Shown: positions 5,507-37,881 of the stretch, one piece after another
Position numbering within the stretch: position 1 is the stretch's first letter
Layout of the letters: each line of letters begins with the position of its first letter
Origin: Pontivivens ytuae
GTDB taxonomy: Bacteria > Pseudomonadota > Alphaproteobacteria > Rhodobacterales > Rhodobacteraceae
Direction: 5' to 3'
Length of the DNA: 64,000 nucleotides
Assembly: GCF_015679265.1 (NCBI RefSeq)
Contig: NZ_CP064942.1
Coordinates: forward strand, 3,142,001 to 3,206,000
Program-made: the position numbers and the translations under genes
The notes under the pieces: model-generated
What the model was told of the DNA's origin: nothing
Seen by the model: only the letters and a program-made list of their open reading frames with translations
The model's database searches: none

Positions 5507-8383
5507 ATGCTGAGGAAGAAGACAGGACGCACCACGCGCGCCACCGTGACCGCAGAGGCCCCGCGCAAGGGCGTCGACCGGCGAAGCTTCCTGAGGGGAT
5601 CGGGTCTCGCGATCGGCGGACTGGCCGCCATCGGCGCCGTCGGCGGCCGGGTCCAGAAGGCCGAGGCGGCCGGTGAGACCTTCCAGATCGGTGACATCAC
5701 GCAGGTGCGCACCGTCTGCACCCACTGCTCCGTCGGCTGCACGGTCGAGGCGGAGGTGCAGAACGGCGTCTGGACCGGGCAGGAACCCGGCTGGGACAGC
5801 CCCTTCAACATGGGCGCCCATTGCGCGAAGGGCGCCTCGGTTCGCGAGCACGCCCATGGCGAGCGTCGCCTGAAGTATCCGATGGAGCTCGTGAACGGCG
5901 AATGGCAGCGCCGCTCCTGGGACGAGGCGATCGAGGCGGTCGGCAACAAGATGCTGGAGATCCGCGAGGAGAGCGGCCCCGACAGCGTCTACTGGCTGGG
6001 CTCCGCCAAGCACAACAACGAGCAAGCCTACCTCTTCCGCAAGTTCGCGGCCTACTGGGGCACGAACAACGTGGATCACCAGGCCCGCATCTGCCACTCC
6101 ACCACCGTGGCGGGGGTTGCGAACACATGGGGCTACGGCGCCATGACCAACTCCTACAACGACATCCACAACTCCCAGCTCATCTTCATCATCGGCGGCA
6201 ACCCGACCGAGGCGCACCCGGTCTCGATGCTGCACGTGCTGAAGGCGAAGGAGGAGAACAACGCGCCGCTCATCGTCTGCGACCCGCGCTTCACGCGCAC
6301 CGCGGCCCATGCCGACGAGTATGTCCGCCTGCGCCCCGGCACCGACGTGGCGCTGATCTGGGGCATCCTGTGGCACATCTTCGAGAACGGGTGGGAGGAC
6401 GAGGAGTTCATCCGCACCCGCGTCTGGGGCATGGACCAGATCCGCGAGGAGGTCGCCAACTGGACGCCCGAGGAGACGGAGCGTGTCACCGGCGTGCCCG
6501 GCCCGCAGCTCGAGCGCGTCGCCCGCCTGATGAGCGAGCATAAGCCCGGGACCGTGATCTGGTGCATGGGCGGCACGCAGCACACCAACGGCAACAACAA
6601 TACCCGCGCCTACTGCGTGCTGCAGCTCGCGCTCGGCAACATGGGCGCCGCGGGTGGCGGCACCAACATCTTCCGCGGCCACGACAACGTGCAGGGCGCG
6701 ACGGACCTCGGCGTCCTCTCCCACACGCTGCCGGGCTACTACGGCCTCTCGACCGGCGCGTGGAGCCACTGGTCCCGCGTCTGGGAGGAGGATCAGGCCT
6801 GGCTCACCAGCCAGTTCGGCTCCCAGGAGCTGATGGAGAGCACGGGCATCCCCGTCTCCCGCTGGATCGACGGCGTGCTGGAGGATCCGGAGAACATGGA
6901 TCAGCCGGCGAACGTGCGGGCCATGGTCTTCTGGGGCCACGCCCCCAACTCGCAGACCCGTCTGCCGGACATGCGCCGCGCGATGGACGAGCTCGACCTG
7001 CTCGTTGTCATCGACCCGTTCCCGACCGTGACCGCAGTCCTGCAGGAGCGGGAGGAGGGCGTCTGGCTGCTGCCCGCTTCCACCCAGTTCGAGACGCGGG
7101 GCTCGGCCACCGCCTCCAACCGCTCGATCCAGTGGCGTGACCGGGTCGTCGAGCCGCTCTTCGAGAGCCTGCCCGACCACATCATCATGGCGAAGTTCGC
7201 GACCAAGTTCGGCTTCGCCGATCGCATCTTCCGCAACATCTCGATGGAAGGCCCCGACGAGCCGAATATCGAGGACATCACCCGCGAGTTCAATCGCGGC
7301 ATGTGGACGGTCGGCTATACGGGGCAGAGCCCGGAGCGGATCAAGGCCCACATGGCCAATCAGGCGAGCTTCGACCGCACGACGCTGCGCGCGGTCGGCG
7401 GCGAGGTGGACGGCGACTACTATGGGATGCCCTGGCCCTGCTGGGGCACGGCCGAGATGCGCCACCCCGGCACGCCCAACCTCTACGACATGTCGCATCC
7501 CGTCTCCGAAGGCGGCCTCACCTTCCGCGCCCGCTTCGGCGTTGAGCGGGATGGGGAGAACCTGCTGGCCGAGGGGGTCTACTCCAAGAACTCCGACATC
7601 CGCGACGGCTACCCCGAGTTCACCATGCAGATGCTCATGGATCTCGGCTGGGACGGTGAGCTGACAGCCGAGGAGCGCGCGACGATCGAGCGTGTCGCCG
7701 GCAGCGGCGATATCGGCGGCGTCAACTGGAAGACCGACCTTTCGGGCGGCATCCAGCGGGTGGCGATCGCCCATGAATGCGCACCCTTCGGCAACGCGAA
7801 GGCCCGCACCGTGGTCTGGACCTTCCCCGATCCGGTGCCGCTGCACCGCGAGCCGCTCTACACTCCACGGCGCGACCTGGTGGCAGACTACCCGACATAC
7901 GAGGACCGGCAGTTCTACCGCCTGCCGACGCTCTATGCCTCGATCCAGCGGACCGACTTCAGCACGGATTACCCGATCACGCTGACCTCCGGCCGTCTGG
8001 TGGAGTACGAGGGCGGCGGGGACGAGACCCGCTCCAACCCCTGGCTCGCCGAGCTCCAGCAGGACATGTTCGTCGAGATGAACCCGCGCGACGCCAACGA
8101 CACCGGCGTGGGCGAGGGCGACTGGGTCTGGGTCGAGGGACCGGAGGGCGGCCGCGTCCGCGTCAAGGCGCTCATCACCGAGCGTGTGGCGCCCGGCGTC
8201 GCCTTCATGCCGTTCCACTTCGGCGGCTGGTTCCAGGGCGAGGACCTCAGGTCGAAATACCCGACAGGCGCCGATCCATACGTGCTCGGCGAGAGCTGCA
8301 ACACCGCGCAGACCTATGGCTACGACAGCGTCACCCAGATGCAGGAGACGAAAGCCACCCTCTGCAAGATCACCGCAGCGTAA
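5507..8383 (+). CDS. fdhA: Formate dehydrogenase alpha (catalytic) subunit, Cys type
   Basis: A 958-residue molybdopterin oxidoreductase with a Tat signal (DRRSFLRGSG, residues 24-33), so the enzyme acts on the periplasmic side. The 4Fe-4S motif is C71xxC74xxxC78 with C106. The active site reads ARICHSTTVAG with C196 and H197, so the metal ligand is cysteine and not selenocysteine. The central region binds the bis-MGD cofactor (IIGGNPTEAHP). The C-terminal dinucleotide-binding domain has LTSGRLVEYEGGGDETRSNP and ends ATLCKITAA. Length is typical of Fdh3-type enzymes. It oxidises formate to CO2 and passes electrons to the beta subunit. It is followed after 12 bases by the beta subunit gene. 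Confidence 0.95.
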   Translation: MLRKKTGRTTRATVTAEAPRKGVDRRSFLRGSGLAIGGLAAIGAVGGRVQKAEAAGETFQIGDITQVRTVCTHCSVGCTVEAEVQNGVWTGQEPGWDSPFNMGAHCAKGASVREHAHGERRLKYPMELVNGEWQRRSWDEAIEAVGNKMLEIREESGPDSVYWLGSAKHNNEQAYLFRKFAAYWGTNNVDHQARICHSTTVAGVANTWGYGAMTNSYNDIHNSQLIFIIGGNPTEAHPVSMLHVLKAKEENNAPLIVCDPRFTRTAAHADEYVRLRPGTDVALIWGILWHIFENGWEDEEFIRTRVWGMDQIREEVANWTPEETERVTGVPGPQLERVARLMSEHKPGTVIWCMGGTQHTNGNNNTRAYCVLQLALGNMGAAGGGTNIFRGHDNVQGATDLGVLSHTLPGYYGLSTGAWSHWSRVWEEDQAWLTSQFGSQELMESTGIPVSRWIDGVLEDPENMDQPANVRAMVFWGHAPNSQTRLPDMRRAMDELDLLVVIDPFPTVTAVLQEREEGVWLLPASTQFETRGSATASNRSIQWRDRVVEPLFESLPDHIIMAKFATKFGFADRIFRNISMEGPDEPNIEDITREFNRGMWTVGYTGQSPERIKAHMANQASFDRTTLRAVGGEVDGDYYGMPWPCWGTAEMRHPGTPNLYDMSHPVSEGGLTFRARFGVERDGENLLAEGVYSKNSDIRDGYPEFTMQMLMDLGWDGELTAEERATIERVAGSGDIGGVNWKTDLSGGIQRVAIAHECAPFGNAKARTVVWTFPDPVPLHREPLYTPRRDLVADYPTYEDRQFYRLPTLYASIQRTDFSTDYPITLTSGRLVEYEGGGDETRSNPWLAELQQDMFVEMNPRDANDTGVGEGDWVWVEGPEGGRVRVKALITERVAPGVAFMPFHFGGWFQGEDLRSKYPTGADPYVLGESCNTAQTYGYDSVTQMQETKATLCKITAA

Positions 8384-11028: not shown

Positions 11029-11314
11029 GCTGTCTCTCCCGCTGTCCGTCCCCCCTTAGAACTGTGCCATTACGTTGGCCGGGAGGGTGGGAGTTTGGAT
11101 GGCTAGGAAACGACATTCAGACGAAGACGTACTGAAGCTGCTGCGAGAGATCGAGCTGAAGCTGACAGCAGGCGATGACGTAGCCTCGGCGTGCCGCAGC
11201 GTTGGGATCAGTGATGCGACATACTACAACTGGCGGAAGCGGTTTGGCGGGATGGGACGTTCGCAGTTGTCAGAACTGAAGAGCTTGGAGAAAGAGAACG
11301 CCCGGCTGAAGAAG

Positions 11315-11361
11315 AATGAGCCCTTTGTCCGCCATTGGTCCGAGGACAATGGGCGAATGCG
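11315..11361 (+). repeat. Hairpin insertion element, class A copy 1
   Basis: 47 bases replace 9 bases of the intact IS. The arm GAGCCCTTTGTCC (11318-11330) and the arm GGACAATGGGCGA (11344-11356) pair with few mismatches around the 13-nt loop GCCATTGGTCCGA. The insertion breaks the OrfA reading frame. Confidence 0.8.
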
Positions 11362-11615
11362 GAGCTCGCACTGGACAAGCTCATCCTGAAGGAAAGCCTG
11401 AACCACCTAAAGCCCAGGGCCTGACCACCGAGGAGCTCCGTCAGGCCGTCATTCACACGCGGCAGAAGCTCGCAACGTCCGAGCGGTGGACGTGCCGGGT
11501 GATTGGTCTGGCGCGGAGCTCCCTGCAATACCGACCGACACAAAGAGAGGACGATGCGTTGCGGTTGGCAATCATCCGGCTTGCAAAGCAGTACGGCCGA
11601 CATGGCTATCGCAAG

Positions 11616-11659
11616 GGTCGTCCTGGTTGCGCCATTGGTTCGAGCAACCCATGGACGAC
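11616..11659 (+). repeat. Hairpin insertion element, class A copy 2
   Basis: 44 bases replace 6 bases of the intact IS. The arm GTCGTCCTGGTTGC pairs with GCAACCCATGGACGAC (11644-11659) around the loop GCCATTGGTTCGA (11631-11643). The arms differ from copy 1, yet they remain complementary to each other. Confidence 0.8.
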
Positions 11660-11684
11660 GAGCTGCTTCATGTCGGGGGCTGGC

Positions 11685-11732
11685 CCCTCTCGGCAGATTT
11701 GGCCTTGCCAAATCGCCTGCCGGGCAATGGGA
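11685..11732 (+). repeat. Hairpin insertion element, class B copy 1
   Basis: 48 bases replace 3 bases of the intact IS. The 8-bp stem GATTTGGC (11696-11703) and GCCAAATC (11707-11714) has loop CTT and is nested inside CGGCA (11691-11695) and TGCCG (11718-11722). The outer flanks are CCCCTCTCGGCAG and GCCTGCCGGGCAATGG. Confidence 0.78.
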
Positions 11733-11755
11733 TCAATCACAAGAAGGTAGAGCGA

Positions 11756-11795
11756 CGAGACCTTGTCCGCCATTGGTCCGAGGACAATGGTCGAG
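11756..11795 (+). repeat. Hairpin insertion element, class A copy 3
   Basis: 40 bases replace 3 bases of the intact IS, right after the codons for Val-Glu-Arg. The arm GACCTTGTCC (11759-11768) pairs with GGACAATGGTC (11782-11792), with one bulge, around the loop GCCATTGGTCCGA. The insert begins and ends with CGAG. Confidence 0.8.
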
Positions 11796-11907
11796 TGGCG
11801 TGAGGAAGGATTGCAGCTTCCGCAGCGCCACAAGAAGCGCAAGCGGCTCTATCGCAAGGACAGCTCGATCATCCGGTTGAGGCCGATGCATCCGAACCAT
11901 GTCTGGG

Positions 11908-11948
11908 GCGAGCCATGGTGCGCCATTGGTTCAAGCACAATGGCGAGC
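11908..11948 (+). repeat. Hairpin insertion element, class A copy 4
   Basis: 41 bases replace 5 bases of the intact IS, after the codons for Pro-Asn-His-Val-Trp. The arm GAGCCATGGTGC (11910-11921) pairs with GCACAATGGCGAGC (11935-11948) around the loop GCCATTGGTTCAA. The net gain of 36 bases keeps the frame. Confidence 0.8.
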
Positions 11949-12480
11949 GACTTCGTACACAACAAACTCAGCAACGGTTGCAGCTACAAGATGCTGACGG
12001 TTCTGGATGAGTTCACGCGACAGGCATTGGCGGTGAGCGTCCGGAGAAAGATGGGAGCCGACGATATCTTGGAAGCGCTCTATCCGCTGCTCCTGAAGCA
12101 TGGTTCGCCAGAGTACATCCGATCGGACAATGGACCCGAGTTCGCTGCCGAAGCACTGCAGCAATGGCTCCGACGCGTTGGCATCAAGCCCATCCGCATC
12201 TATCCGGGATCGCCTCGGGCAAACGGGTACAACGAGCGGTTCAATGGGACATGACGCCGAGAGGTTCTCAATGCGGAGTGGTTCACGACAACGAAGCAGG
12301 CCCAGATCGTCATCAACCACTGGCTCAGACAGTACAACCACACCTGCCCGCATCAGGCGCTCAACATGCGCCCACCAGTCCCAGAAACCTTATTGGAGAA
12401 AGCCCCGATCAGTGACCCAGACACAGGGGGCTAGACAGGATAACTGCAGGGCAAACCCGTGCTGCGCGCCAAGAGCTCGG

Positions 12481-12531
12481 CCCTTTCTCTACAAATTTGG
12501 TTTTGCCCAATCGCCTGCTGGGCAACAGGTC
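12481..12531 (+). repeat. Hairpin element, class B copy 2
   Basis: It has the same flanks as class B copy 1 (CCCTTTCTCTACA at the left; TCGCCTGCTGGGCAACAGG at the right). The middle stem is different: ATTTGG and CCCAAT around a T-rich loop, with one mismatch. It lies outside any recognisable gene, 43 bases beyond the decayed IS3. Confidence 0.6.
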
Positions 12532-19510: not shown

Positions 19511-20710
19511 TGTCCTTCCCCCCTAGAACTGGGCCATTACATTGGCCGCGAGAGGGGGATTGGGCATGGCGAGGAAGCGACATTCAGACGAAGACATCTT
19601 GAAGCTGCTGCGTGAGATCGAGCTGAAGCTGACGGCGGGCGATGACGTGGCCACTGCATGCCGCGGCGTCGGGATCAGCGACGCGACATACTACAACTGG
19701 CGGAAACGGTTTGGCGGGATGGGCCGGTCGCAGCTGTCGGAGATGAAGAGTTTGGAGAAAGAGAACGCCCGACTGAAGAAGATCGTCGCCGAGCTCGAAC
19801 TGGACAAGCTCATACTCAAGGAAAGCCTGAACCACCTAAAGCCCAGGGCCTGACCACAGAGGAGCTTCGTCAGGCCGTCCTTCACACACGCCAGAAGCTT
19901 GCCACGTCTGAGCGGCGGACCTGCCGGGTGATTGGCCTGGCGCGGAGCTCCCTGCAATATCAGCCAACACAGAGAGACGATGATGCGCTACGGTTGGCTC
20001 TGATCCGGTTGGCGAAGCAGTACGGGCGATATGGCTACCGCAAGATCACGGAGCTGCTTCACATGGAAGGCTGGCGGGTCAATCACAAGAAGGTCGAGCG
20101 GCTCTGGCGTGAGGAAGGATTGCAGCTTCCGCAGCGGCACAAAAAGCGCAAGCGGCTCTACCACAAGGGCAGCTCGATCATCCGGCTTCGGCCCACGCAC
20201 CCGAACCATGTTTGGGCAATAGACTTCGTGCATGACAAGCTCAGCAATGGGCGCAGTTACAAGATGCTGACGGTTCTCGACGAGTTCACGCGGCAGGCCT
20301 TGGCTGTTGTGGTCCGCACCAAGATGGGTGCCGACGAAGTTCTCGAAGCACTCTATCCGCTCCTGCTGCGCCACGGTTCCCCGGAGTATATCCGGTCCGA
20401 TAACGGACCCGAGTTCGCAGCAGAGGCGATGCAGGGCTGGCTTCGGCGTGTTGGGATCAAGCCCATCCGCATCTACCCAGGATCACCCTGGGAGAACGGA
20501 TACAACGAGCGCTTCAATGGGACATTACGGCGAGAGGTTCTCAATGCGGAGTGGTTCACGACGACCAAGCAAGCTCAGATCGTCATCAATCACTGGCTCA
20601 GGCAGTACAATCACACCCGACCGCATCAGGCACTCAACATGCGCCCACCCGTTCCTGAAACAATATTAGAGAAACCCCTGATCAGTGGCCCAGACACAGG
20701 GGGCTAGACA
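19511..20710 (+). mobile_element. IS3-family insertion sequence, intact copy 1 (1200 bp)
   Basis: The left inverted repeat starts TGTCCTTCCCCCCTAGAACT and the right end, read inward, starts TGTCTAGCCCCCTGTGTCTG. Both ends lead into GGGCC. The element encodes one OrfAB transposase. Its sequence appears identical to the copy at 36405-37604 in the same orientation. No matching 3-4-bp target duplication flanks it, which would fit recombination between copies or an adjacent deletion. On the right it truncates an IS5-type gene. Confidence 0.93.
19566..20707 (+). CDS. IS3-family transposase OrfAB (programmed -1 frameshift)
   Basis: OrfA (19566-19853, 95 residues) starts MARKRHSDEDILKLLREIEL with an HTH (GVGISDATYYNWRKRFGG) and a leucine-zipper-like end. 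OrfB continues in the -1 frame to 20707, with LTTEELRQAVLHTRQKLATS, an HTH_21 region (YGRYGYRKITELLHMEGW) and the rve/DDE core. The DDE residues are visible in VWAIDFV, YIRSDNGPEF and the Glu of FNGTLRREVL. The CCTAAAG context just before the OrfA stop is a plausible slip site. A likely ATG at 19566 follows AGAGGGGGATTGGGC. It appears intact and potentially active. Confidence 0.92.
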
Positions 20711-20926
20711 GCCATTCTTCGCCCACCTGTTGTAGCGATTGTAGACCGTCGTTCGCGGGCCATAGCGCTCCGGGAGGTCGCGCCAGGGGGCTCCGGTCCT
20801 CAGAATATAGAAGATGCCACTGATGACGCGTCGGTCATCGACCCGTGCGACACCTCTCGGCTTGTTCGGCAGAAGGGGCGCGATCACCGCCCATTCCGCA
20901 TCCGTCAGATCGTGCCTGCCTGTCAT
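20711..20926 (-). pseudogene. IS5-family transposase N-terminal fragment
   Basis: The minus strand reads MTGRHDLTDAEWAVIAPLLP, then RVISGIFYILRTGAPWRDLP and RYGPRTTVYNRYNRWAK. This is the conserved N-terminus of IS5/IS1182-type OrfA proteins. It stops at the right end of the intact IS3 copy, so the remainder has been lost. Confidence 0.8.
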
Positions 20927-21616: not shown

Positions 21617-21659
21617 GGGTGAGCACAGGTGCGCCATCGGTCACGGCGCCTGTTCGAAC
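21617..21659 (+). repeat. Hairpin insertion element, class A copy 5
   Basis: It sits in the last codons of OrfA, between the codons for KLIL and for ASGNV. The arm GAGCACAGGTGC (21621-21632) pairs with GCGCCTGTTC (from 21646), with wobble pairs, around a 13-nt loop GCCATCGGTCACG. Confidence 0.65.
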
Positions 21660-21927: not shown

Positions 21928-21966
21928 GCGAGCCTTTGTCCGCCATTGGCCCGATGAAAATGGCTA
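21928..21966 (+). repeat. Hairpin insertion element, class A copy 6
   Basis: It lies right after the codons for Val-Glu-Arg, the same point as copy 3 in the other IS3 type. The left arm GAGCCTTTGTCC is close to copy 1, the loop is GCCATTGGCCCGA (21941-21953), and the right arm TGAAAATGGCTAG is partly decayed. Confidence 0.75.
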
Positions 21967-22074
21967 GCGGCGGCGGGAAGGGCCGAAGGCTCCACGGAAG
22001 CAGCCGAAGAAGTCGAGGCTCTGGTTCAACGACGGGTCCTGCATCCGTCTGAGGCCGGAGCGCCCCAACCATGT

Positions 22075-22121
22075 CCCCTCTCGGGACGTCGCTGCGCGAT
22101 GCCCTGCCGGGCGGCGGGATC
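22075..22121 (+). repeat. Hairpin insertion element, class B copy 3
   Basis: It lies right after the codons for Pro-Asn-His-Val, the same point as class A copy 4 in the other IS3 type. The flanks CCCCTCTCGGGA and GCCCTGCCGGGCGGCGGG match class B. The inner stem is different (CGTCGC with GCGATG, loop TGC). Confidence 0.72.
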
Positions 22122-36404: not shown

Positions 36405-37604
36405 TGTCCTTCCCCCCTAGAACTGGGCCATTACATTGGCCGCGAGAGGGGGATTGGGCATGGCGAGGAAGCGACATTCAGACGAAGACATCTTGAAGCT
36501 GCTGCGTGAGATCGAGCTGAAGCTGACGGCGGGCGATGACGTGGCCACTGCATGCCGCGGCGTCGGGATCAGCGACGCGACATACTACAACTGGCGGAAA
36601 CGGTTTGGCGGGATGGGCCGGTCGCAGCTGTCGGAGATGAAGAGTTTGGAGAAAGAGAACGCCCGACTGAAGAAGATCGTCGCCGAGCTCGAACTGGACA
36701 AGCTCATACTCAAGGAAAGCCTGAACCACCTAAAGCCCAGGGCCTGACCACAGAGGAGCTTCGTCAGGCCGTCCTTCACACACGCCAGAAGCTTGCCACG
36801 TCTGAGCGGCGGACCTGCCGGGTGATTGGCCTGGCGCGGAGCTCCCTGCAATATCAGCCAACACAGAGAGACGATGATGCGCTACGGTTGGCTCTGATCC
36901 GGTTGGCGAAGCAGTACGGGCGATATGGCTACCGCAAGATCACGGAGCTGCTTCACATGGAAGGCTGGCGGGTCAATCACAAGAAGGTCGAGCGGCTCTG
37001 GCGTGAGGAAGGATTGCAGCTTCCGCAGCGGCACAAAAAGCGCAAGCGGCTCTACCACAAGGGCAGCTCGATCATCCGGCTTCGGCCCACGCACCCGAAC
37101 CATGTTTGGGCAATAGACTTCGTGCATGACAAGCTCAGCAATGGGCGCAGTTACAAGATGCTGACGGTTCTCGACGAGTTCACGCGGCAGGCCTTGGCTG
37201 TTGTGGTCCGCACCAAGATGGGTGCCGACGAAGTTCTCGAAGCACTCTATCCGCTCCTGCTGCGCCACGGTTCCCCGGAGTATATCCGGTCCGATAACGG
37301 ACCCGAGTTCGCAGCAGAGGCGATGCAGGGCTGGCTTCGGCGTGTTGGGATCAAGCCCATCCGCATCTACCCAGGATCACCCTGGGAGAACGGATACAAC
37401 GAGCGCTTCAATGGGACATTACGGCGAGAGGTTCTCAATGCGGAGTGGTTCACGACGACCAAGCAAGCTCAGATCGTCATCAATCACTGGCTCAGGCAGT
37501 ACAATCACACCCGACCGCATCAGGCACTCAACATGCGCCCACCCGTTCCTGAAACAATATTAGAGAAACCCCTGATCAGTGGCCCAGACACAGGGGGCTA
37601 GACA
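36405..37604 (+). mobile_element. IS3-family insertion sequence, intact copy 2 (1200 bp)
   Basis: Sequence and orientation appear identical to the copy at 19511-20710, including both inverted repeats, which implies very recent transposition or gene conversion. The two copies enclose 15,694 bases. No clear target duplication flanks this copy. The 230 bases before it hold no gene that I can support. Confidence 0.93.
36460..37601 (+). CDS. IS3-family transposase OrfAB (programmed -1 frameshift)
   Basis: Identical in translation to the transposase of copy 1: OrfA 36460-36747 with the YYNWRKRFGG HTH, and OrfB to 37601 with intact DDE residues (VWAIDFV, YIRSDNGPEF, FNGTLRREVL). Both copies look able to act, and either could move the other or the whole segment. 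Confidence 0.92.
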
Positions 37605-37881
37605 GCCACGAGCGGCGCCATCCCGTCGGTCTCGAAAGCCGATTACGTCGACGCCTACGCTGCGCAATGGGGCGCGCGACCCAGCACAGCCGCTGTGCCC
37701 GATACGGCACGCCGGCAACGTCCGACCGCTCACAAAGCTCCGATCCCACGAGCGCCCGCGGCCCGACGCGTCGCTGCAGGGTCAAGCCAAGAGGGCTGAG
37801 CAGGTCCGATGGCCTGTCCGGGATCGTCGGTCCCCCTCGAGCCGAGAGGACCGACGATCCCGACACGCCACGGAAGAGAAC

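Follow-up and report, generated by a model that had tools for sequence, protein, structure and literature searches.

The window, by which we mean the whole 64-kb stretch of DNA that was analysed, contains two decayed insertion sequences (IS) of the IS3 type that carry small hairpins, as well as two IS3-family relatives of the first of them (Table 1). The decayed IS that begins at 11044 is 79-89% identical, block by block, to the relatives at 19511 and 36405, and these two are identical to each other across the 300-nt block compared. About 18-19 relatives are present in the 4.2-Mb genome (the second half of the IS matches 18 and the first half 19), which suggests that the element represented at 19511 and 36405, the two copies in which openness of the ORF was checked, is now or was recently active. 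Alignment with the 19511 relative, which lacks all four class A hairpins, gives five extra blocks in the decayed IS; four are the class A hairpins that an earlier note on this DNA had recognized, and the fifth (11685-11729) is a hairpin of a different type, here named class B. Every one of these class A hairpins (four of four) and the class B hairpin is an insertion: hairpin 1 takes the place of about 5-6 nt of the IS, and comparison of the class B hairpin with an 86% identical relative (locus L174) gives an insertion that leaves the length of the flank unchanged. The second decayed IS3-type element, at about 21.4-22.6 kb, holds two class A hairpins and one of class B; the class A copy at 21928-21968 is the sixth in the window and an addition to the five of the earlier note.

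Table 1. Insertion sequences and hairpins of the window (positions are those of the window)
Feature	Position	Strand	Remarks
Decayed IS3-type IS	11044..12438	+	Hosts five hairpin insertions; 79-89% identical to the intact window copies
Class A hairpin 1	11316..11358	+	Outer pair AT/AT; loop 11331-11343; ends set by hand
Class A hairpin 2	11617..11659	+	Arms GTCGTCC..GGACGAC, GGTTGC/GCAACC; loop 11631-11643; ends set by hand
Class B hairpin	11685..11729	+	CCCTCTCGG..GGGCAATG; inner stem ATTTGGC/GCCAAAT
Class A hairpin 3	11755..11796	+	Outer pair AC/GT; loop 11769-11781; ends set by hand
Class A hairpin 4	11908..11948	+	Outer pair GC/GC; loop 11922-11934; ends set by hand
Degenerate class B hairpin	12483..12527	+	Directly downstream of the decayed IS
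IS3-family relative	19511..20726	+	Empty-site reference; 349-aa ORF with HTH_21 and rve
Class A hairpin, fifth copy	21619..21659	+	In second decayed IS3-type element; arms ACAGGTGC/GCGCCTGT; loop 21633-21645
Class A hairpin, sixth copy	21928..21968	+	In second IS; partly decayed; position equivalent to hairpin 3
Class B hairpin	22076..22116	+	In second IS; position equivalent to hairpin 4
Second copy of the 19511 IS	36405..37620	+	Same Pfam scores; 349-aa ORF with HTH_21 and rve

The four class A hairpins of the first IS share the loop GCCATTGGTYCRA, which starts at 11331, 11631, 11769 and 11922, and their arms are as the earlier note gave them: in hairpins 1-4 the arm pairs TTGTCC/GGACAA, GGTTGC/GCAACC and GGTGC/GCAC do change together. 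The fifth copy (21619-21659), whose arms are quite unlike those of the others, is real too, and comparison with locus L167 gives an insertion of 36 nt; no relative of it passed the stricter filter, and L167 appeared under a looser search. Its inner stem and loop fold like those of the other class A hairpins, and its outer G-A step is a reading by hand that is absent from the minimum-energy fold. The general class A layout is, on the left, an outer RY dinucleotide, tandem G-A/A-G, (N)CC, often ATTG, and a variable 2-4 nt; to the right of the loop come a stretch complementary to those variable nucleotides, CAATGG(N)C, G-A and RY. With RNA parameters hairpins 1-4 each fold as one hairpin, with a bulge of four bases and the loop further closed as GCC-AUU-GGY. 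DNA parameters give the same stem in three of the five copies folded, with hairpin 4 taking an alternative fold and the sixth copy folding poorly. The RNA folding z-scores against shuffles are -2.9, -3.1, -1.4 and -1.8 for hairpins 1-4, 0.1 for the fifth copy and -0.5 for the sixth; hairpins 1 and 2 have clearly unusual folding energies, and in the other window copies the effect is much smaller.

Tandem G-A pairs, by their base-pairing chemistry, favour one strand as the structured one. The step is present only on the strand that bears the loop GCCATTGGTYCRA, and this strand is therefore probably the one that folds. A second fold had been suggested, in which CCATTG at the start of the loop pairs with CAATGG in the right arm; three of the six window copies could form it completely and the sixth copy with one mismatch, and 11617-11659 and 21619-21659 could not form it, so that it is available to some copies and is not conserved. 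In the 64-kb window Rfam finds only two tRNAs at the gathering score, and nothing relevant at six hairpin loci with E up to 1. The loop has six exact matches in the 4.2-Mb genome and the reversed control pattern none; two of the six fall outside the decayed IS, within ordinary coding sequence, and are read as chance.

Compensatory change was examined across 121 distinct class A copies, collected with a search pattern in which loop, next G and right-arm AATGG are fixed and the left arm is free, by which circularity was avoided; the set includes two apparent chance matches (L140 and L142). Stem positions 2, 3, 4 and 5 pair in 100, 89, 72 and 85 of the 121 copies, compared with maxima of 70, 71, 67 and 69 in 1000 shuffles that ignore the kinship of the copies. 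Position 1 is nearly invariant, and pairing at positions 6-7 is not above the shuffles because of bulges there. The outermost dinucleotides, which lie outside the pairing of the model, are inverse-complementary in 61 of the 74 copies with a GA step readable on both sides (mean 17.4 and maximum 31 in 2000 shuffles, kinship again ignored). Direct repeats such as GAATG and CGAG, next to several copies, look like target-site duplications, but the 27 copies that are informative comprise 19 inverted and eight mismatched cases and no direct repeat; the outer pairs beyond the tandem G·A step covary, and so they belong to the stem and not to a target duplication. The claim that both arms change in a compensatory way around a fixed loop thus holds family-wide and far above shuffles, and the fixed loop together with the family-wide copies rules out gene decay or chance palindromes.

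The class B hairpins have fixed ends (CCCTCTCGG..CCTGCCGGGCARTG) that enclose a covarying inner hairpin. Their alignment comprises 18 of 21 pattern matches chosen by the ends, and omits two decayed window copies and L137. With the structure taken from this same alignment, the share of paired cells is 96.0%, compared with 75.1% for shuffles, and the score for covariation is 0.447, compared with 0.105; neither value is reached by any of 500 shuffles, and slid registers pair at 35-51%. Two of the five covariation measures are not beyond the shuffles: pairs altered on both sides (6 vs 4.3, matched by 32 of 500) and further pair types (9 vs 7.7, matched by 146 of 500). At least two classes, then, occur family-wide, and in both of them compensatory changes preserve the fold on one defined strand; the covariation in both, with the tandem G-A step favouring one strand, speaks for the earlier suggestion that a single-strand structure is under selection.

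Empty sites indicate how the hairpins were inserted. A candidate unfilled relative was found among the fetched loci for 49 of 168 class A copies, a set in which many are no more than 75-90% identical and a few, such as L218 and L230, are self-matches or truncated. In the cleanest class A pair, L166/L135 (about 99% identical), CAGG-CAACC-GGCTCC becomes CAGG-[42-nt hairpin]-GGCTCC, and in the reverse comparison, where L135 is filled and L166 empty, ACAC is lost. The net gain is mostly 36-39 nt and most commonly 37 nt, with about 4-6 target bases lost as counted by hand. The lost stretches often include CAAC, TCAC or ACAC, and TCGTC, TGGTC and GTTTG also occur, so the class A target consensus is weak. 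For class B a candidate empty relative exists for 33 of 39 copies, of which L266, the one for L264, is actually filled; in the pairs of highest identity the flanks join (GGCGAC/GATGG, GATCTTC/AAT, GGT/GTT) with neither duplication nor loss, the net insertion being most often 41 nt. Hairpins are present in one and absent from the other of near-identical flanks at orthologous sites in L166/L135 (99%), L168/L092 (98%) and L256/L239 (94%), and it is from such comparisons of sequence that we infer mobility. As regards target-site duplication the hairpins are unlike miniature elements (MITEs) of a DDE-type IS, in that none of the 27 informative class A copies has a direct repeat and class B joins its flanks cleanly.

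A covariance model built on the four class A copies of the first IS finds five clear class A copies in the genome, all inside the window; it misses the fifth copy (E 5.9 when the window alone is searched), and so decayed copies elsewhere in the genome may be overlooked. The hairpins of this genome were found only in or beside the two decayed IS copies, and were probably imported with them. In the bacterial family as a whole, 132 of 295 genomes match the class A model (E up to 1e-3) and 102 of 295 the class B model (at 1e-4), and 56 carry both, a modest overlap (odds ratio 1.87, p 0.014). When 385 genomes were drawn from the taxonomic class, a sample that includes at least five of the same family, five matched class A at 1e-4, and four of these five were of that family. 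At least 120 class A loci are named, nearly all of them Rhodobacterales; seven of those listed have other names, and two of the seven are the apparent chance matches L140 and L142. Class A also matches 34 plasmid records, every one bearing a Rhodobacterales-type name. Annotated transposases of IS3 or IS21 contain four of the matches and other annotated genes two; two more are in unannotated records, and the others fall under no gene listed in an incomplete gene table. Phage records gave no class A match. The hairpins are probably native to one alphaproteobacterial family whose named members are Rhodobacterales.

At the 124 class A sites of the pattern set, the flanking fragment with the most coding-like pattern (by a codon-position GC score) was scanned against Pfam, and of the 72 families matched the leading ones are rve (12), HTH_21 (10), HTH_Tnp_1 (8), rve_3 (7), HTH_23 (6) and rve_2 (5), followed by Transposase_mut, DDE_Tnp_1_5, Mu-transpos_C_2 and DDE_Tnp_1 with four each. 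Control fragments taken 2.5-3 kb away (115 of them) matched 106 families; the 25 listed, which ABC_tran leads with six, include no transposase. These are overlapping counts per family and not per site, and the claim is accordingly limited to a strong over-representation of transposases near class A. Seven of the eight best class B loci sit in ORFs that we take, from their motifs, to be transposases (four of IS3 and one each of IS21, IS630 and IS5; L257 is ambiguous). The excess in transposase genes holds for both classes and spans several IS families. Several insertions adjoin what are presumably catalytic Asp codons (NHVW/..DF in IS3, SDNG in L139/L246, LLV/DSTG and VMI/DATYLK); other hairpin sites in the same IS are not at catalytic codons. 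Many class A copies are intergenic, and the scan also matched single host genes. The intergenic-looking copies at L108-L112 (genome G148), L123 and L124 (genome G010), L178 and L180 have a stereotyped context, AAATACTCCGGGG or GCGCGAGGGG, and some of them have at least 12 uninterrupted pairs.

Hairpin-bearing IS copies have multiplied. In one genome (G013) three IS copies that are 98-99% identical have a class A hairpin inside, and in another (G035) three copies identical over 0.92 kb have a class B hairpin inside. Two of the three G013 copies have a single open ORF (348 and 333 aa) through the hairpin and one does not. In these two (L119:2406-3449 and L120:2403-3401) the hairpin lies at the apparent orfA/orfB junction with one frame running through both, and to judge from the sequence this frame may be a fused transposase.

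The hairpins are probably short (about 37-45 nt), non-autonomous mobile palindromes that are selected for their structure and parasitise IS. On this reading an enzyme acting in trans would recognise the folded single strand, either DNA or an RNA that is copied to DNA, and we propose that the stem can for this reason drift only in a paired way with the loop or the ends held fixed. Insertion would proceed with no target duplication, cleanly in class B and with loss of about 4-6 nt in class A, from which we propose an enzyme unlike a DDE transposase; our best guess is that it joins the folded single strand without a staggered duplication. Insertion would usually break the transposase frame, and the hairpin would then be carried along whenever its IS is mobilised in trans or passed on by gene transfer; in the present genome the hairpins would have arrived with the two IS copies that are now decayed. 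Enrichment in IS genes may reflect tolerance of insertion there and amplification with the IS, and not targeting. A more specific version can be entertained only tentatively: the hairpins might be family-wide hyperparasites that home into transposase genes by non-RAYT machinery, silencing the IS and yet riding it, with several classes of about 40 nt selected only for a fold and a fixed loop or ends and inserted, without target duplication, at recurring conserved codons, several of them adjoining putative catalytic Asp codons (IS3, IS5 and IS256-type).

It seems unlikely that there is no present mobility at all, and that a few ancient insertions have since spread only with their IS, by transfer and gene conversion. 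Such a history would accommodate the multiplication of hairpin-bearing IS copies, the confinement of the hairpins of this genome to the vicinity of two dead IS copies, and the recurrence of the same sites across genera. The sites themselves fit it less well. In an alignment of six IS sequences (of which L174 and L128 lack part of the 3' end), the hairpin 1 site is filled in the window and in L128, the hairpin 2 site in the window and in L174, and the hairpin 3 site in the window, L128, L174 and L092. A third kind of insert, class C (GGAGCCGATTAAGCAAACGATCCGGGGGATCGTTTGTCAGGCGG), is common to L174 (near 6780-6850) and L128 (near 220-300) at the same site. If each site was gained once and never lost, the pairings given by hairpin 1, hairpin 2 and class C among the window, L128 and L174 conflict. 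Around hairpin 3 the sequence of L092 agrees with that of the empty L168, and not with the window, right up to the insertion point, so that the flanks are specific to the IS lineage as far as the hairpin. Different subfamilies and classes also occur at one site: the hairpin 4 site holds a class A hairpin in the window, a class B-like one in L128 and the class B hairpin at 22076 in the second dead IS. Near-identical flanks that differ by a hairpin (L166/L135) tell against this history as well. Very short gene-conversion tracts may nevertheless be the cause of shared sites.

That the hairpins are kept as RNA, in the role of terminator, attenuator, frameshift stimulator or IS silencer, is quite improbable. 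The tandem G-A and G-U pairs on one strand, the intergenic copies downstream of genes and the several copies at an A6G frameshift window of IS3 elements would suit such a role, but the hairpins lie either way round with respect to the gene that they interrupt, the frame is put out by most of the net lengths, and there is no match to an Rfam family. The frameshift-window copies are class A hairpins of different subfamilies at an AAAAAAG run (L101, L105, L121, L122, L145, L192 and L230), a run that we take to be the A6G window of IS3-type elements in several genomes.

The hairpins could also be REP elements moved by a RAYT (Y1, TnpA_REP) transposase of the same genome, as the earlier note had proposed. 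The short palindrome with its conserved loop and covarying arms, and the intergenic copies near gene ends, resemble REPs, and the absence of target duplication in class B is what single-strand Y1 transposition would give. However, the Y1 domain PF01797 of the RAYT family is absent from this genome. It is present in one of ten genomes with class A and one of eight without (the latter, G015, bears class B), in one of 14 with class B and one of six without, and, pooled, in three of 28 hairpin-bearing genomes (G007, G015 and G064) and one of nine with neither class (G029), yet in five of 14 control genomes. There is moreover no GTAG-type foot, the aligned feet showing a paired RY-GA/GA-RY in the place of an unpaired tetranucleotide, and class A loses target bases. 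This makes the RAYT proposal very improbable, and it is largely refuted; the selected structure is the part of the earlier interpretation that stands, the RAYT transposase is the part that falls, and the second fold suggested there is not conserved. The earlier note had also overlooked that the hairpins are insertions into the IS and that sites are shared by several hairpin classes. IS110 (PF01548) was considered as another possible mover; it is present in 16 of 24 genomes and absent from this genome and from the hairpin-bearing G075, G007 and G010, and thus has no clear association.

The idea that the hairpins are protein-coding or ribosome-bypassed inserts (RPE- or byp-like) tolerated in a working transposase can scarcely be right: a copy in L080 is open in all six frames by hand and open ORFs run through hairpins in L119/L120 (348/333 aa) and L080 (695 aa), but the commonest net lengths, 37 nt in class A and 41 nt in class B, are not multiples of three, the takeoff and landing codons of hairpin 4 mismatch by hand, and antisense insertions exist. 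Translational bypassing was also followed by hand in the window, where hairpin 1 could restore a frame and hairpin 4 could not. The 695-aa frame in which the L080 class A hairpin (L080:1501-1544) lies resembles a phage terminase large subunit.

The mobile palindromes proposed here have partial likenesses among known systems. The ends of IS200/IS605 elements and their MITEs are recognised as single-strand hairpins and insert without target duplication, which would fit class B; unlike them, the hairpins have no fixed tetranucleotide target, class A loses bases, and a Y1 domain is found in only three of 28 hairpin-bearing genomes. Mitochondrial byps and GC clusters, like the present hairpins, are small mobile hairpins that occur again and again at the same sites of coding genes; unlike byps, hairpin 4 is without matching takeoff and landing codons and both orientations occur. 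We know of no mover for the Rickettsia palindromic elements (RPEs), which like these hairpins are alphaproteobacterial palindromes inside genes. The hairpins differ from RPEs in their length of about 40 nt, in that they usually break the frame, and in their excess in transposase genes: the commonest net insertion is 37 nt for class A and 41 nt for class B, and a few copies lie in open frames. RPEs are, in the available text of two sources, about 150 bp long and form in-frame fusions in metabolic genes (PMC10969869, PMC3733652).

The GTAG and CGTC superfamilies of REPs are, as far as the available text of PMC3733652 describes them, short palindromes with complementary stem change that lie both between and within genes, and CGTC REPs are mostly alphaproteobacterial and without a dedicated transposase; in all of this the hairpins are alike. 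The loops are different: 4-5 nt in CGTC and 2-20 nt with an unpaired tag in GTAG elements (PMC3733652, same text), compared with the fixed 13 nt of class A. The tandem G-A step of class A and the fixed ends with a variable inner hairpin of class B also set them apart from both superfamilies as there described. A CGTC REP is defined in that text by an 8-9 bp stem starting with A-T pairs, a loop of 4-5 nt and a CCA-like tail (PMC3733652), and class A, with its 13-nt loop and internal stem mismatches, departs from this stem and loop; an intergenic class A subfamily does have GTCG..CGACG (CGTC on the minus strand), partly within the stem. Association of CGTC elements with transposase genes is there called only fortuitous (PMC3733652). 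The main text of that paper makes no mention of Rhodobacter, Paracoccus or Roseobacter, and in the main text of the RepRanger paper (PMC12306157) Rhodobacter, Paracoccus, Roseobacter, Ruegeria and CCATTGG each occur zero times. Four 10-letter hairpin pieces were also searched against the literature; the matches listed are unrelated by title, and among the literature matches listed there is no published description of class A or B hairpins.

Classes A and B behave like orphan REPs, and the REP and RPE repeats are the nearest known kinds. To our knowledge, orphan palindromes such as the CGTC REPs have no known mover, and it is this gap that the present hairpins address: near-identical empty sites, two insertion rules and a narrow host range make the search for the enzyme concrete. 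If transposase genes are indeed preferred, the hairpins would be natural brakes on IS that travel with them. The genome that contains the window also has, downstream of uvrC, a sequence (L002:2046-2083, CGTCATCCTCGGGCTTGACCCGAGGATCTC) that by eye resembles an ordinary CGTC-type REP and is unrelated to class A.
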